DNA from: a virus
Reading direction: 5' to 3' (one strand)
IMG/VR virus record: IMGVR_UViG_3300032288_000233
Coordinates: 1 to 21,072 of that record
DNA length: 21,072 nucleotides
The notes under the pieces: generated by a model
What the model was told of the DNA's origin: nothing
The model's database searches: none
What the model saw: the letters and a program-made list of their open reading frames with translations, nothing else
Made by a program: the position numbers and the translations under genes
Shown here: positions 1-6,886 of the stretch, piece after piece
Layout of the letters: each line of letters starts with the position of its first letter
Position numbering within the stretch: the stretch's first letter is position 1

Positions 1-101
1 GAGACATTCTCATCATGCTTGCCCTTGAAGTAACCACTCCCAAAAGAAATGGTTACAGACAAGACAAACCCCAAGATTACCCAAGGGTTAAAGATACTCA
101 T
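1..101 (-). CDS. Partial membrane protein, Rz-like i-spanin candidate (3' end outside window)
   Basis: The first 33 codons of a gene run off the left edge. It starts at an ATG whose bases overlap the TGA of the upstream holin-like gene (ATGA), so translational coupling is likely; no strong SD is visible. The visible peptide begins MSIFNPWVILGFVLSVTISF and continues with a glycine/tyrosine step and then a charged stretch (KGKHDEN). This is one N-terminal transmembrane segment of about 18 residues followed by a hydrophilic start. Such a layout, directly after a two-helix membrane protein at the end of a late region, is typical of Rz-type inner-membrane spanins, which link to an outer-membrane lipoprotein and disrupt the envelope. 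Only the N-terminus is visible, so another small membrane protein or a signal-anchor endolysin is equally possible. Confidence 0.6.
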   Translation of the reverse strand, partial: MSIFNPWVILGFVLSVTISFGSGYFKGKHDENV

Positions 102-421
102 GGCGTAGGTGGCTCATCGTTGTCAGTGGCTTCAGCCTTAGCACTGGCATTGGCAATAGCCTTTACACCAGAACGACCTGCTACACCACCCAAGACACCA
201 GTGATAAATACCATGATGGTGCTGATCTGTTGCGTGTAAACCTTGTCAATTGCCGCCATAGCACCATTCATAGGCTGAGTGACAAAGGAGACTGAGTACA
301 AGAACATACCCATAGAAGCCAACAGAATAGTCACCAAGACCACGATAACGAATGCCCATACCCTGACCTCGATCTCGTCTGCGGTCAAACGGTTGTTTTG
401 CTTGTATCCAATGGTTGCCAT
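98..421 (-). CDS. Two-transmembrane holin-like protein
   Basis: A 107-residue protein with two hydrophobic segments, at about residues 22-44 (FVIVVLVTILLASMGMF core) and 65-82 (STIMVFITGVLGGVAG core). They are separated by a short loop, and a hydrophilic, acidic, proline-containing C-terminus ends in EPPTP. Size and two-helix layout match class II-type holins, which permeabilise the inner membrane to time lysis. Neighbours fit this: a lipoprotein gene is immediately upstream (TAATG one-base overlap) and a single-helix membrane protein immediately downstream (ATGA overlap). No homology search was possible, so the holin role rests on topology and context. It could instead be a general phage membrane protein. 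The start is fixed by the overlap with the preceding stop, with an AG-rich stretch upstream. Confidence 0.7.
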   Translation of the reverse strand: MATIGYKQNNRLTADEIEVRVWAFVIVVLVTILLASMGMFLYSVSFVTQPMNGAMAAIDKVYTQQISTIMVFITGVLGGVAGRSGVKAIANASAKAEATDNDEPPTP

Positions 422-606
422 TACTTTTTCTCCTCTGGTTTAACTAACATCTCTGGGCAAGTACCTGTAGCGGTACAAATCGGTGGCTTACATTCATCTT
501 TTCCCCAATTCAGTGGGTCTTGGCAAGGATAGCGAAATCTATCAGAACACCCTGTCAAAAACAGGATTGTCGCTAATAGCATCAGGCTCTTTACGATTTT
601 TATCAC
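421..606 (-). CDS. Outer-membrane lipoprotein, Rz1-like o-spanin candidate
   Basis: A 61-residue protein with a lysine-containing N-terminus, a hydrophobic stretch and a lipobox L17-T18-G19-C20, followed directly by S21-D22. It should be cleaved before C20 and lipidated. The mature part is about 42 residues and is rich in Cys (28, 39, 44, 50) and Pro. I place the start at the GTG at 606 because AAAGGA lies six bases upstream; a longer reading from a TTG at 633 lacks this spacing. Its first 65 bases overlap, in a different frame, the 3' end of the upstream transmembrane/coiled-coil gene, the arrangement seen for lambda Rz/Rz1. A small lipidated protein in a lysis region is most simply an o-spanin. 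Disulphides or another envelope role are possible, since classical Rz1 is proline-rich rather than cysteine-rich. Confidence 0.75.
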   Translation of the reverse strand: MIKIVKSLMLLATILFLTGCSDRFRYPCQDPLNWGKDECKPPICTATGTCPEMLVKPEEKK

Positions 607-754
607 GCTCTTTCCTTTCAATGCGTTGTTCAATCTTCTCTAACTTCTGCAAAGCACGTTTAGCTTCATGCTTTGTCTCCAAGATGTCCCAGTACAGCAT
701 TCCACCCATAGGGAGCAATAGGGCGATAAGTACGCAACAAGCAACCCACCCCAT
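542..754 (-). CDS. Small transmembrane/coiled-coil protein, possible i-spanin
   Basis: A 70-residue protein. Residues 3-21 form one hydrophobic segment (core VACCVLIALLLPMGGM). Residues about 25-57 form a highly charged helix with coiled-coil spacing (KLEKIEQRIERKERDKNRK). I chose the ATG at 754 because AGGAGAGGA precedes it; a longer reading from 877 would run through the upstream gene and has a low-complexity N-terminus. The 3' end overlaps the lipoprotein gene by 65 bases in another frame. N-terminal anchor plus coiled coil plus overlapping lipoprotein is the Rz/Rz1 layout, but the periplasmic part is short for Rz. The strongly basic tail could also keep the C-terminus in the cytoplasm by the positive-inside rule, so the spanin call is tentative. 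Confidence 0.7.
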   Translation of the reverse strand: MGWVACCVLIALLLPMGGMLYWDILETKHEAKRALQKLEKIEQRIERKERDKNRKEPDAISDNPVFDRVF

Positions 755-765
755 GATTTCCTCTC

Positions 766-1452
766 CTATCTCTTGACGAACAGAAACCACATCCATATGT
801 AAAGGAGGAGAATTGCCGTTCCCACTAGGTACGCTTCTTTTAGCATTAGGTTTCGTTTTGCTTCCCGCCGCCGCCATTGCTTGTACCTCTCTTTGGACTC
901 CTCTATCAGTCTGGCTTCTTCTTGCTCCTTTTTGATGATGTCACGCATCTCAAAGACTGAACTGTACAAAGCGCCCATCTCAGGAGGGCTGTGGTAAACC
1001 ATAGTCTCCCTGATTTGGACAATCAACCTGTCCATCTCCTGTTGAGCCATCACTCGTTTGAGTGCCGCCTCCATGTGGTTTTGATCTGGGTCGTAAACTG
1101 TTTTAGACTTTTCTTCTTCTTCTCTAATGTGAGCTTCCAACTGTTCTTGAAGTTTGAAGAACTCAGTGAGGTTTTTAACGATGTCAACTTTGACTTGAGT
1201 TTCGTTAACAGCAACATAGTCAGACTTTTTAGTGTTTGCAACAGGCTTAACAGCTTTAGGCTTGGGACTAGAGCCAAAGAAACTGCTAAGTTTCGACCAG
1301 AAACCTTGAACCTCTCTACCAATAGCGATAACTTCATCAGCAGTGGCTTTGATCTCGACAAAAGACTCTTTAGCTTGCTTGTAAAGGTCACAGCCAGCTT
1401 GGATGTTCTTGACAAGGCCAGCAGCAAGTAGGCATAGACTGATTGGGTCAAT
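766..1452 (-). CDS. C-terminally membrane-anchored helical phage protein with probable AUU start
   Basis: The frame ending at 766 stays open up to an in-frame TAG at 1458. It has no ATG, GTG or TTG until a TTG at 1140. An ATT codon at 1452 lies six bases after AAGGAG, so I annotate a 228-residue product starting there: (M)DPISLCLLAAGLVKNIQ. The residues between 1452 and 1140 look like normal protein (FVEIKATADEV, FWSKLSSFFG), so the upstream part is coding. Residues 1-60 are amphipathic, 60-80 a Lys/Pro linker, and 85-200 charged helix (EMRDIIKKEQEEARLIEESK). Residues 203-225 form a hydrophobic C-terminal anchor (AYLVGTAILLLYIWMWFLF) closed by VKR. It follows the last ejection protein and precedes the lysis-type genes. 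Function is unknown; envelope or lysis-related membrane roles are inference from position only. Confidence 0.75.
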   Translation of the reverse strand: MDPISLCLLAAGLVKNIQAGCDLYKQAKESFVEIKATADEVIAIGREVQGFWSKLSSFFGSSPKPKAVKPVANTKKSDYVAVNETQVKVDIVKNLTEFFKLQEQLEAHIREEEEKSKTVYDPDQNHMEAALKRVMAQQEMDRLIVQIRETMVYHSPPEMGALYSSVFEMRDIIKKEQEEARLIEESKERYKQWRRREAKRNLMLKEAYLVGTAILLLYIWMWFLFVKR

Positions 1453-1458
1453 GGTCTA

Positions 1459-1464
1459 CTCCTT
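1459..1464 (-). promoter_or_regulatory. Shine-Dalgarno that places an AUU start
   Basis: On the minus strand AAGGAG overlaps the TAA stop of the large ejection protein gene (TAAGGAG). It sits six bases before ATT at 1452-1450. No canonical start codon in any plausible coding frame follows at a better distance. The TTG one base later (1451) opens a frame with leucine/serine/lysine-biased, shadow-like content. Confidence 0.65.
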
Positions 1465-4231
1465 ATTGAGGGGTGAATTGATAGTAAGGCTCTGTGTTTG
1501 GCTCAACAACTTGGCTCGGACTTATGGCAGTAGAACCACCAAAATATCCTGACCGTAATGCACCCATACCCAATGCCTGACCAAAATCAGATAAATCCTC
1601 TGGTTTGACAAATGACTTCAAATCAACTTCTTCGCCTTTTTTGCTCAAAATTTTGGTTGATGTATTCAGGATTTTGTCTACACCATTCTCATCAAGAAAC
1701 AGCTTTCTATGGGCTTCTCTTGTTGACTCATCAATATTGCTCTTGCCAATCAAAGCCATAATCCTGAAAGCCTTATTGAACACGCTAGAAATTTGATTGA
1801 CTGCAATACCAGAGATTTGTTGTGGACTTACACCACCAGTAGCCCTTTCTATAATTGATGTTTCTTTTACAGCGGCAGCACGAATATTCAAATTGTCAAC
1901 ATTCACCTTGTTTGCCAAACGAGCAACATCAGCCAATGACATCAAGTTGTTAACGTGCTTTTCACCAAAAACCTGAGTGAAAGTATCTTTATTTGCATCA
2001 AGATATTTCATAGGATTTTCGGCAGAAAGCATTTTGCCAACTAAACCATTTTTAACGGCAAGTTTGACGTTTGTTTGCTCATCAGAAGACAACTTTTTAA
2101 GGTCAACAAAAAACTTGTTTCTGTAGCCCTTTCCTGTAGAGCCAGTCATCTTTGAAACAATGGTGTCAACACCACCAGCATCGTAGTCTGACAAGAAACT
2201 TTGACCCAAACGAGTCCTTGTTTCTTTGGCGGCATCATCTATAGCCACCTTCTCAGAAGACAGATATTGACTCTTGATTGTTGCATCGTTAAGTCTTTGT
2301 TTCAGGGCAGGCAGTTGATCTACTATGTCGCTGTAACCGCCATTGTTGCTTGTCTTGCTTAACAATGATTGGAGTTTTGCAGGGTCAACATAACCATTCT
2401 TGTCTAATGATTGGTTATACATCTTAGACATAACAGCCTTTTCAGCCAAACCAGTTCCTTCTTCTCCAGCAACACGCAAAAACTGTGTCATGGCAGTTGG
2501 ACTTGTGGCAATCAACGGCGCAATCTTTTCAGAGTAATCAAGAGAACTGATTTTCTTAACGGCTTCAGCATTTCTAAAAGGAATGCCAACTTTATTGAAA
2601 TAATCATTGTCTAAGTTAGACATTGCTTCACCAAAAGGCATTTTTTCACCTCTCAGATCAACCTGAATATCGCCACTTGAGTTTTGTACCTTGTTTAATG
2701 CTTCATCAACATTGGTCTGCAAAAGGCGCAATTTATCTTGTCTATTAGGGTCACGAGTCTCCCTAATATCTTGAGCAACACGCCTTTTTAAGGAATCAAG
2801 ACTAGTGATGTCCATGCCCATAGTCAAGTCTGGTGCAGTTGTAGCTGGCAACATTGTTCCAGCTTCTGTTGGTGTAGCCTGTCTACGCATTGCCTTGAAT
2901 TTAGAAGATTGTTCACGAACCAACTTCAACAATGGAGCTTGTTTAGCCCAAGGGTCGCCTTGAAACAAATCTTCTGCTGTACGCAACAAATTTTGAGTGT
3001 CTTGTGCTGATAACAAAGCACCTTGATTAGATGCCTGACTCAAGATTGAATCGTATTCAGGTGAAAGTGCGGCTCGTGCGGCTTTCTCTTTGGTTAAAAC
3101 AAGATTTTGGATAGATGTACCAATTTCTGATGGCTTGGTAGCACCAGTAACATCAAGATTTGATGTAATCTTGTCTAATTGATTGTTGATAAACTTAATG
3201 CGCTGATCGAGATCAACCTCTTTTTCTGCAATCTTTGCTTTGCCAGAAGGTATTTCTGCGCTAGGAGCGGGATACAACTCAGAAGATTTTTTGCCAACAG
3301 CAATCTTTAAATCAGCATACAGCTTCTGTAGTTCAGCCGCAAATCCAACATCATTTCTTGCAATATCTTCTAACTTTGTTCTGAGGGCAAGATTGTCTAA
3401 TCCAGTAACTGCCGCAGCGCCTTTTTCTCCAGTTACAAAAACAACCCTATCCTGAATAGATTTAAGTCTTTGTTGTAGATTTGGGTCTGCTTCTAAAGCT
3501 CTTTCAACAAGGTCTTTAGCTCTAGATGCGCCTTCTACATCTGCCAAGTCTTGAACATCAAAGTCTTTAGGGTTAAACCTTGCTTGAGCCTTGTCAAACA
3601 ATACTTGACCAACTTTTGAAGTTAAGCCTCCAAAAAGCAAAGCAGAACTTATCCCGACTATTACTTGACCTGTAAGACCGCCAACTTGACCACCAACCTC
3701 ACCACCAGCTTCACCAGCCACACCAGCCACACCAGCAGTTCCAGTAGAAAACAGCGTTCTTCCAGCTAATCCAAGGGCTGATTTAGCGCCACCTAAACCA
3801 AACAAATTTAATGGGTCTGCCGCAGCCTCAACACCAGCACCAATGTATCTTTGCAAACCAGTGGCAGGACGCAAGTTTGGATTTATACCAAAAGTTCTTT
3901 GAATAGACTCTGGCGTTGTTGCCTCTAGCTCTGGTTGAGAAGGAAATGCACCAGCAAATGTCCCTGTTTGCATTGCGCTACCAGAACCAAGCAAAGAACC
4001 AATATTGGTCAACCCTATTTGAGCACGATTTAACAAATACTCTGACATTGTTGGTGGAGTCGGCTCATCACCAATCATTTGCAATGGTGGTGGTATTTCT
4101 TCCGCAGGAGTTGTTGGAAACGCATTTGTACGCATAGATTGAGCTATTTCTGCCAATCTACGAGCGTCATCTGCATTTCCAGAGGCATCGGCATTACGCA
4201 ATGCTTCAATAACTTCGTTATAAGTTGCCAT
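1463..4231 (-). CDS. Large ejection/internal virion protein (T7 gp16-like by position)
   Basis: A 922-residue protein, the largest of three consecutive genes in the position of T7 gp14-gp15-gp16. Those enter the host with the DNA and form a channel across the envelope. The N-terminus (EVIEALRNADASGNADDARR) is a short helical repeat common in phage internal proteins. Residues about 145-205 are a glycine/alanine-rich hydrophobic stretch (VAGVAGEAGGEVGGQVGG) that could insert into membranes. The remaining roughly 700 residues are mainly charged helix with no recognisable enzyme motif, and I see no lysozyme or transglycosylase signature. The ATG at 4231 follows TGAGGTAATT, whose GAGG overlaps the upstream stop. 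The assignment rests on length, composition and order. A generic structural protein is the alternative. Confidence 0.7.
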   Translation of the reverse strand: MATYNEVIEALRNADASGNADDARRLAEIAQSMRTNAFPTTPAEEIPPPLQMIGDEPTPPTMSEYLLNRAQIGLTNIGSLLGSGSAMQTGTFAGAFPSQPELEATTPESIQRTFGINPNLRPATGLQRYIGAGVEAAADPLNLFGLGGAKSALGLAGRTLFSTGTAGVAGVAGEAGGEVGGQVGGLTGQVIVGISSALLFGGLTSKVGQVLFDKAQARFNPKDFDVQDLADVEGASRAKDLVERALEADPNLQQRLKSIQDRVVFVTGEKGAAAVTGLDNLALRTKLEDIARNDVGFAAELQKLYADLKIAVGKKSSELYPAPSAEIPSGKAKIAEKEVDLDQRIKFINNQLDKITSNLDVTGATKPSEIGTSIQNLVLTKEKAARAALSPEYDSILSQASNQGALLSAQDTQNLLRTAEDLFQGDPWAKQAPLLKLVREQSSKFKAMRRQATPTEAGTMLPATTAPDLTMGMDITSLDSLKRRVAQDIRETRDPNRQDKLRLLQTNVDEALNKVQNSSGDIQVDLRGEKMPFGEAMSNLDNDYFNKVGIPFRNAEAVKKISSLDYSEKIAPLIATSPTAMTQFLRVAGEEGTGLAEKAVMSKMYNQSLDKNGYVDPAKLQSLLSKTSNNGGYSDIVDQLPALKQRLNDATIKSQYLSSEKVAIDDAAKETRTRLGQSFLSDYDAGGVDTIVSKMTGSTGKGYRNKFFVDLKKLSSDEQTNVKLAVKNGLVGKMLSAENPMKYLDANKDTFTQVFGEKHVNNLMSLADVARLANKVNVDNLNIRAAAVKETSIIERATGGVSPQQISGIAVNQISSVFNKAFRIMALIGKSNIDESTREAHRKLFLDENGVDKILNTSTKILSKKGEEVDLKSFVKPEDLSDFGQALGMGALRSGYFGGSTAISPSQVVEPNTEPYYQFTPQ

Positions 4232-5461: not shown

Positions 5462-6886
5462 TTAAGCCACTTGAACAAGTTGACCATTGATGATTTGATA
5501 CTTAGGTGCTGACGATTGAACACCAAACGCATTGTTAATCGCACCAGTAACCATTGGATTCTGAGCAATACCAGACAGCAAGTTACCAGAAGCAGAGTAA
5601 GCATTTGGTGCAGCCATTGTTTGTGCCGCACTAGTAATGCCTGAACTCAACAAGCTACCAGACAAAGTGTTAGCAGCAGTTGTTCTTTCGCCAATCGAAG
5701 TACCTAAATTCATTGGTTGTTGTGCCAAACCTTCAAGTTTTGTAGTTGTGTCCATAGCGGTAGCAAATGGAGCATATGCCGCAGTCTGACCAGAATAGTA
5801 TTTGCCTTGCAAACCAGCACCAGTGTCAAACAGTCCAGCACCGTAAGTAATGCGGTTTCTAGCCTCTTGGTCAGCTTGTGCAGACAAAGCCAAGTTACTT
5901 TGAGCAATCGAGTTGTAGTAAGCCGCCATCTCAGGATTGGTAGCCATCAGGTTACCGCCTTGAGCCGTAGCCGCACCAGTACGACCTTGTTGGAACAACT
6001 TGTTCTGCAACAGTGCTAACTGATTCTCTTGGCTAGGAGCAAGCAAAGCCTGTTGTTTAGTGATGTAGTCTTGTGCCGCTTGTTCAGGAGACTTGGCAAG
6101 ATAACCTTGGCCCAAACTAAACAGGCTCTGTGCCGCACCAGTCAAAGGCTGATAGGCAGTAGCGGCTTGTTCTGCTTGGGTCAAACCCTGACCAGCCAAT
6201 GTAGACAGACGATTCTGATAGCCTTGAATCTCAGGGCTTGCAGAGTAACCAGCGCCAATCACATTGCCCTGTGCATCAGTAGCAAAGGCTGATTGACCAA
6301 AACGAGTGGTTACGCCAACAGGACGGAACTTAGCGGCATCAGCGGCAATCTGAGCAGCACGAACTTGAGCATCAGCTTGTGTTTGAGCCGCTTCTCTACC
6401 CTGACTTGCAATTTGACTAGAACCAGCACTACTGAGCAATGCCTGAACACCCGCAGAACCTAGTTTTCCAAGGGTATCTGTACTCAGGCCAGTAAAGTTA
6501 GAAACAGAAGATAGGACGCTAGGAATCAAGCCTTGTGAGGCCACAGTCGCAGATAATTGAGAAGGAGAAACAGCGGAATAGTTACCAGAAATTGCAGTTG
6601 TTGGAGTGGTAGTACCCCCAAACAAACCACTTCCTGAGACAGCTTGCGTAGCACCAGCAACTAAACCACCAAGAGCCGCATTTTGTAAGACTTCCGATGG
6701 TTTATCACCCGCAACTACACTTGCCGCCCCACTAAGAGCCGCCGCACCTACAACCGCCGCAGTAGCCGCACTAGCGCCAAGAGCAGAGCCAATTGCAGGG
6801 GCTAAAGGAGGAAAGACAATTGCCGCAACTGCCGCAATAGGCTTAATATTCTTCTTTAACCAATTACCAAATTTTTTCAGTCCCAT
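5462..6886 (-). CDS. Ejection/internal virion protein with hydrophobic N-terminus (T7 gp14-like by position)
   Basis: A 474-residue protein that starts MGLKKFGNWLKKNIKP, a basic amphipathic head. An Ala/Gly-rich hydrophobic stretch follows to about residue 60 (AATAAVVGAAALSGAASVVA). The rest is rich in Ala, Gln, Ser and Gly, including an extended Q/A helical part (QTQADAQVRAAQIAADAAKF) around residues 165-185. Such first-of-three proteins (T7 gp14, P22 gp7 analogues) are small, hydrophobic and thought to sit in the outer membrane during DNA entry. The ATG at 6886 lies just after the TGA of the upstream gene, with GGAG seven to ten bases away. Many side-tail and ejection proteins of environmental podoviruses have this composition. 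The exact role is not proved. Confidence 0.7.
   Translation of the reverse strand: MGLKKFGNWLKKNIKPIAAVAAIVFPPLAPAIGSALGASAATAAVVGAAALSGAASVVAGDKPSEVLQNAALGGLVAGATQAVSGSGLFGGTTTPTTAISGNYSAVSPSQLSATVASQGLIPSVLSSVSNFTGLSTDTLGKLGSAGVQALLSSAGSSQIASQGREAAQTQADAQVRAAQIAADAAKFRPVGVTTRFGQSAFATDAQGNVIGAGYSASPEIQGYQNRLSTLAGQGLTQAEQAATAYQPLTGAAQSLFSLGQGYLAKSPEQAAQDYITKQQALLAPSQENQLALLQNKLFQQGRTGAATAQGGNLMATNPEMAAYYNSIAQSNLALSAQADQEARNRITYGAGLFDTGAGLQGKYYSGQTAAYAPFATAMDTTTKLEGLAQQPMNLGTSIGERTTAANTLSGSLLSSGITSAAQTMAAPNAYSASGNLLSGIAQNPMVTGAINNAFGVQSSAPKYQIINGQLVQVA

Follow-up and report, generated by a model that had tools for sequence, protein, structure and literature searches.

A probable AUU start, exchanged for GUG but not for AUG, in a phage gene family at the head of a putative lysis cassette

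Introduction

Initiation of translation at AUU is already known from infC, pcnB and cvfC1 of Staphylococcus aureus. Gene 26 of phage T4, studied by Nivinskas et al. in 1992, reportedly has an internal AUU start from which a shorter second product is made. The infC gene, which codes for IF3, begins with AUU in E. coli and with ATC in Streptomyces (PMC5472188). Non-canonical starts are repressed by IF3, and the GTC start of Streptomyces sigR is one of those repressed (PMC5472188). In S. aureus, cvfC1 uses AUU and ccpN/citZ use AUA; non-canonical starts with an extended Shine-Dalgarno (SD) sequence, AUU included, gave about 10% of the expression of the AUG version in reporters assayed in poor medium (PMC13009471). 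As summarized in that paper, the AUU of E. coli pcnB limits its expression (Binns and Masters 2002, via PMC13009471). Re-initiation without an SD is also inhibited by IF3 in E. coli (PMC2268962). The literature searched yielded no paper on an AUU-started phage gene family.

Here, we analyzed a stretch of 21,072 bases from the IMG/VR record IMGVR_UViG_3300032288_000233 of an uncultured virus, referred to below as the window.

Results

The start site

A preliminary description, made from the letters of the window, had proposed an AUU start for a 228-residue frame lacking ATG, GTG or TTG before a TTG 312 bases further on. All its coordinates were confirmed: no such codon lies in frame before the TTG at 1140, which is 312 nt, or 104 codons, past the ATT. 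The AAGGAG that it placed six bases ahead of the ATT was found exactly there (AAGGAG 1464-1459, spacer TAGACC 1458-1453, ATT 1452-1450, minus strand). At -8.8 kcal/mol, the SD duplex of this gene ranks with the strongest in the window, where -7 is reached by 2% of random sites. The TTG at 1451-1449 on the minus strand belongs to the +1 frame relative to the ATT. The features of the region are collected in Table 1. Elsewhere in the window, capsid, tail and virion-protein genes were recognized with PHROG, and the best capsid relatives among the matches listed come from the cyanobacterial phages CHP58 and A-4L (~34% identity). No Rfam elements or tRNA were detected in the window.

Table 1. Features around the AUU-started gene (window coordinates).
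Feature	Position	Strand	Evidence
Probable AUU (ATT) initiation codon	1450..1452	-	homologous codon ATT/GTG/ATC in listed loci, ATA in L094
Shine-Dalgarno AAGGAG, 6-nt spacer to ATT	1459..1464	-	sequence; anti-SD duplex -8.8 kcal/mol
In-frame TAG closing the frame just 5′ of ATT	1456..1458	-	sequence
228-codon AUU-started gene, stop TAG 768-766	766..1452	-	pN/pS; AlphaFold2 model all-helical, with C-terminal transmembrane helix
TTG, first canonical in-frame codon 3′ of ATT; rejected as start	1138..1140	-	position not common to relatives
922-aa gene, probably structural; its TAA 1465-1463 overlaps the SD	1463..4231	-	sequence
111-aa gene, one TM helix, ATG, SD -9.1 kcal/mol; overlaps 3′ end of AUU gene; internal control	542..877	-	ATG in 141/146 loci
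Small lipoprotein-like gene, LTGC lipobox motif, lysis region	421..633	-	sequence
107-aa TM protein, holin-like position, ATG and strong SD	98..421	-	phrog_25359, E 6e-10; ATG in 117/117 loci

Start codons of the relatives

Searching viral contigs with the protein yielded 499 related stretches. The homologous codon was ATT in 70 and GTG in 10 of the best 80 of these 499, which have 69-96% identity. When a divergent member served as the query of a second search, a clade with mostly GTG was reached; at the same site, these divergent relatives have GTG in 31 cases, ATT in 7 and ATA in one (L094). In a clade more distant again (25-31% identity), the proteins begin with M-L-D-P or M-F-D-P, mostly from GTG, one codon upstream. 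In one member of it, L289, the start at this upstream position is ATG, and in L084 an ATG stands directly 5′ of the ATT. Because of these two loci, AUG cannot be regarded as forbidden throughout the wider family.

We also performed a blind scan for the motif DPI..C..AAG.VK just after the start, leaving the start codon itself unconstrained. Among the matches listed, 175 distinct loci carried ATT (160), GTG (14) or ATC (1) and none carried ATG; these loci are a sample, to be read as at least that many, and part of them came from the earlier protein searches. Since ATT recurs in 160 of the 175 listed loci, which were found blind to the start codon, it is neither chance nor a sequencing error, the latter having been named in the preliminary description as one way in which the proposal could fail. 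The other way, homologues starting only at the position of the TTG at 1140, is not seen in any set of relatives. They begin with M-D-P-I at the proposed site, mostly from ATT, ATA or ATC and otherwise from GTG, and in none of them is the codon at this site ATG. Between the ATT and the upstream stop there is no canonical in-frame codon in any of the 160 ATT loci (matches listed), and the stop abuts the ATT directly in 24 of them. On these comparative grounds, we consider with high confidence that the AUU start is real.

In the loci in hand, ATG was found at the site in 0 of 231 copies. The genes that follow in the cassette start with ATG in 141/146, 117/117, 110/114 and 97/106 copies (92-100%), and part of the non-ATG cases in these control counts are probably alignment shifts. 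A start-codon tree of 161 proteins was built by a quick method and has some long branches; its loci are not independent, many being close relatives. The well-supported branches of this tree require at least 10 changes involving ATT and at least 8 involving GTG. Such repeated turnover between ATT and GTG without ATG is not expected from drift among start codons. Inside the gene, isoleucine is encoded by ATT 577, ATC 539 and ATA 255 times, and the start in the same rows is ATT 102 times and ATC once; relatedness inflates this contrast, so we use it merely as support.

No homologues of the AUU gene were detected in a search of cellular genome contigs. Among the 25 largest ORF groups inspected in the same loci, no further gene showed the pattern of an isoleucine start codon plus SD. 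Other ORFs lacking early canonical starts were considered as AUU genes and rejected, as in these 25 groups they looked like non-coding shadow frames.

The expectation that standard gene callers would truncate the protein was borne out by shortened homologues in a viral-structure library and in GenBank. Those in the library have 162 and 191 aa, the former labelled a fragment, and the GenBank homologue, from MW202484, has its annotated start at an ATG seven codons past the conserved GTG. Gene callers thus miss or shorten a whole phage family because its start is non-canonical.

Sequence context of initiation

The mean anti-SD energy was -6.4 kcal/mol for the ATT class (n=106), compared with -1.8 for the GTG class (n=40) and -2.0 for random sites. 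The ATT class, including the gene in the window, thus joins a strong SD to a weak codon, and the weak codon is partly offset by the strong SD. As exceptions, the SD is weak in seven forms with an isoleucine codon and fair in four with GTG. When corrected for the tree, the test of whether AUU goes with a strong SD was left with 8 independent pairs, about 5 for and 0.5 against such an association, and was not significant (median p 0.125).

The upstream stop ends between 24 nt ahead of the start and 5 nt past it, and in nearly all relatives within about 10 nt of it. For ATT starts, this stop falls mostly within the SD or the spacer, and in 26 of 40 GTG starts the GTG lies 1 nt past it. In the window, the overlap of the upstream stop with the SD suggests that the 922-aa gene and the AUU gene are likely to be translationally coupled. 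No match to the 922-aa gene was obtained in a PHROG and Pfam family search.

Two further observations concern this region. In 34 of 38 GTG relatives (L082-L124), the start reads ATGTG (e.g., L082:5999-6003), with an out-of-frame ATG two bases 5′ that often overlaps the upstream stop (TGATGTG). The +1 frame opened by this ATG is not conserved, and the ATG may be a decoy start. The second observation is that near-identical gene copies (L001-L080) have sharply different sequences 5′ of the ATT; the break lies near the SD or the start codon, which suggests that structural and lysis modules meet there at a recombination boundary.

The 228-aa protein and its neighbors

The AlphaFold2 model, computed from an alignment without two GenBank rows, has four helices, a long C-terminal one ending in a hydrophobic stretch, and a mean pLDDT of 72. 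The protein matched neither Pfam nor any known lysis family, and its PHROG matches were weak and uninformative. A fold search returned no solved structure and solely uncharacterized phage proteins. When examined as a holin or antiholin, the protein showed one predicted C-terminal TM helix and no family match. The idea that the product is IF3 itself (infC) was dropped, as there was no Pfam match. From its position, a low-dose lysis regulator would be a reasonable guess; it could equally be the last virion protein.

The gene contents of the relatives place the AUU gene at the head of what appears to be an Rz-spanin/endolysin lysis cassette. In the longer relative L407, TM proteins, an Rz-like spanin (phrog_1327) and an M15 endolysin (phrog_894) stand behind the homologue of the AUU gene; the spanin and endolysin neighbors are found in relatives, and the window stops short of both genes. 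By inspection, other clades have a cassette of the same kind, with the gene order kept in several and frequently including a lipoprotein gene and an endolysin of another kind, and genes resembling the lipoprotein-like gene at 421..633 occur in L066, L013, L154 and L124. The type of endolysin seems to vary by clade (L013, L066, L101, L154 and L275, judged from sequence alone; M15 in L407). In addition, a proline-rich lipoprotein frame is nested in the putative Rz spanin gene (L066:5356-5841 and 5564-5827; also L013, L034 and L154). The nesting resembles that of classical embedded Rz/Rz1 pairs.

Selection on the reading frame and alternative explanations

In the frame of the ATT, pN/pS is 0.14 over codons 2-15 and stays between 0.14 and 0.36 as far as codon 200, and the other two frames give 1.4 and 2.0 over codons 2-48. 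The purifying selection estimated from these alignments is strong, acts in frame 0 only and begins at codon 2. Together with the ATT in 160 of the 175 listed loci, selection right after the codon argues for a true start other than AUG, GUG or UUG. If translation instead began at a downstream canonical codon, which in the window is the TTG at 1140, codons 1-104 would be untranslated or decayed. This TTG is the first in-frame ATG, GTG or TTG and is what standard gene callers would choose. We regard such a start as very unlikely, as purifying selection acts on codons 2-104 in this frame (pN/pS 0.14-0.36), the TTG lies inside a helix predicted to run unbroken from 84 to 118, and no alternative start is common to the relatives, whose first canonical codon can be as early as codon 5 or as late as codon 126. 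A start in the +1 frame (TTG 1451, or the ATG of ATGTG in the GTG class), followed by a shift or yielding an overlapping +1 protein of its own, has in its favor that nearly all relatives have a canonical +1 codon there and that the +1 frame is open for 86-133 codons in many. However, a +1 TTG is the automatic outcome of ATT followed by an Asp codon, and L094, with ATAG, has no +1 start. Nor is the +1 frame conserved as a protein (pN/pS 1.4 in the ATT clade and 1.3 in the GTG clade), and in some relatives it closes after 3-62 codons. The early codons vary at third positions, and the alignment points to the absence of a conserved slippery site. We consider a +1 start hardly credible.

The proximity of the upstream stop, within about 10 nt of the start in nearly all relatives, would also suit readthrough of that stop, or a frameshift, joining the N-terminus to the preceding gene. 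Relatives nevertheless differ in the sequence ahead of the ATT and in the frame of that sequence with respect to it, the stop ending between 24 nt ahead of the start and 5 nt past it, and in the window an in-frame TAG separates the 922-aa gene from the AUU gene. Readthrough or frameshifting is disfavored because no single event fits all relatives and initiation at AUU or GUG does; we consider a fusion extremely unlikely. A different objection accepts AUU as the start and holds that the avoidance of AUG is historical, arising from few origins and copies made by recombination, with no role in dosage. It draws on the mosaic upstream sequence, in which the SD and start may have been swapped as one block, and on the many loci that are close relatives. 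Against it stand the ATA and ATC forms and the exchange of ATT and GTG on at least 8-10 occasions, with ATG never at the site, although ATG is one mutation away from each of ATT, ATC, ATA and GTG; the neighboring genes in the same genomes keep ATG. A purely historical origin is thus improbable in our judgement.

Discussion

Comparison of the sequences shows where the gene starts, that a codon other than AUG is conserved there, that AUG itself is missing from this position in the loci compared, and that AUU goes with a strong SD. These features suggest that the output of the AUU gene is deliberately held low, and control of the gene by dosage and by IF3 is what we infer foremost. The initiator tRNA would read the AUU at 1452-1450 as formyl-methionine, with the strong SD positioning the ribosome, to give a product beginning M-D-P-I-S. 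The weak codon would keep the first protein of the lysis cassette well below the co-transcribed AUG-started genes behind it, and it would render synthesis sensitive to IF3. An AUU start with this SD placement, taken jointly with low output and IF3 sensitivity, is very probably the right explanation. The GUG relatives apparently arrive at this result differently, having no SD and presumably re-initiating right past the upstream stop, a class of event inhibited by IF3 in E. coli. By analogy with the bacterial systems, we infer that both classes, ATT with a strong SD and GTG without an SD, would give weak and IF3-sensitive initiation. It is a tentative and rather doubtful step further to propose that the family conserves gating by IF3 and not the codon, so that AUU, AUA or AUC with a strong SD would be interchangeable with SD-less GUG re-initiation. 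If this were true, the translational state of the host, that is, the balance of IF3 to ribosomes, would set the dose of the protein and perhaps the time of lysis.

What is new, as judged from the loci compared, is that the family lacks AUG at this position. Among the genes of the cassette, only the first one keeps AUU or GUG and avoids AUG at its site, and the family offers natural data for studying selection against AUG. AUU starts are otherwise known from a handful of bacterial genes, and here they belong to a whole phage gene family.

Several of the known systems resemble this one in part. The infC gene has an isoleucine-type non-canonical start in several bacteria and is a known target of IF3 discrimination. 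However, its product, IF3, regulates itself, whereas the phage product is an unrelated, helical membrane protein (as predicted) with no evident feedback loop. The pcnB gene is kept at low expression by AUU, as the phage gene may be, although it is a host gene for an unrelated protein. In sigR, a weak start codon sets the stoichiometry with respect to a co-transcribed partner, which might also hold in the phage; sigR differs in its codon, in being a cellular gene and in that a re-initiation alternative is not known for it. As in Rz/Rz1 cassettes, the genes that directly follow this one in relatives code for a TM protein, a lipoprotein, an Rz-type spanin containing a nested lipoprotein frame, and an endolysin, but the AUU-started protein itself has no known lysis-family match. 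The cvfC1 and ccpN genes likewise pair an isoleucine-type start with a conserved, strong and extended SD; cvfC1 and ccpN/citZ are cellular genes, and the phage family also alternates with SD-less GUG. Gene 26 of T4 shares with the present gene an AUU start in a phage, but there the start is reportedly internal and described from one phage, whereas here the AUU/GUG site would be the sole start of an entire gene family.
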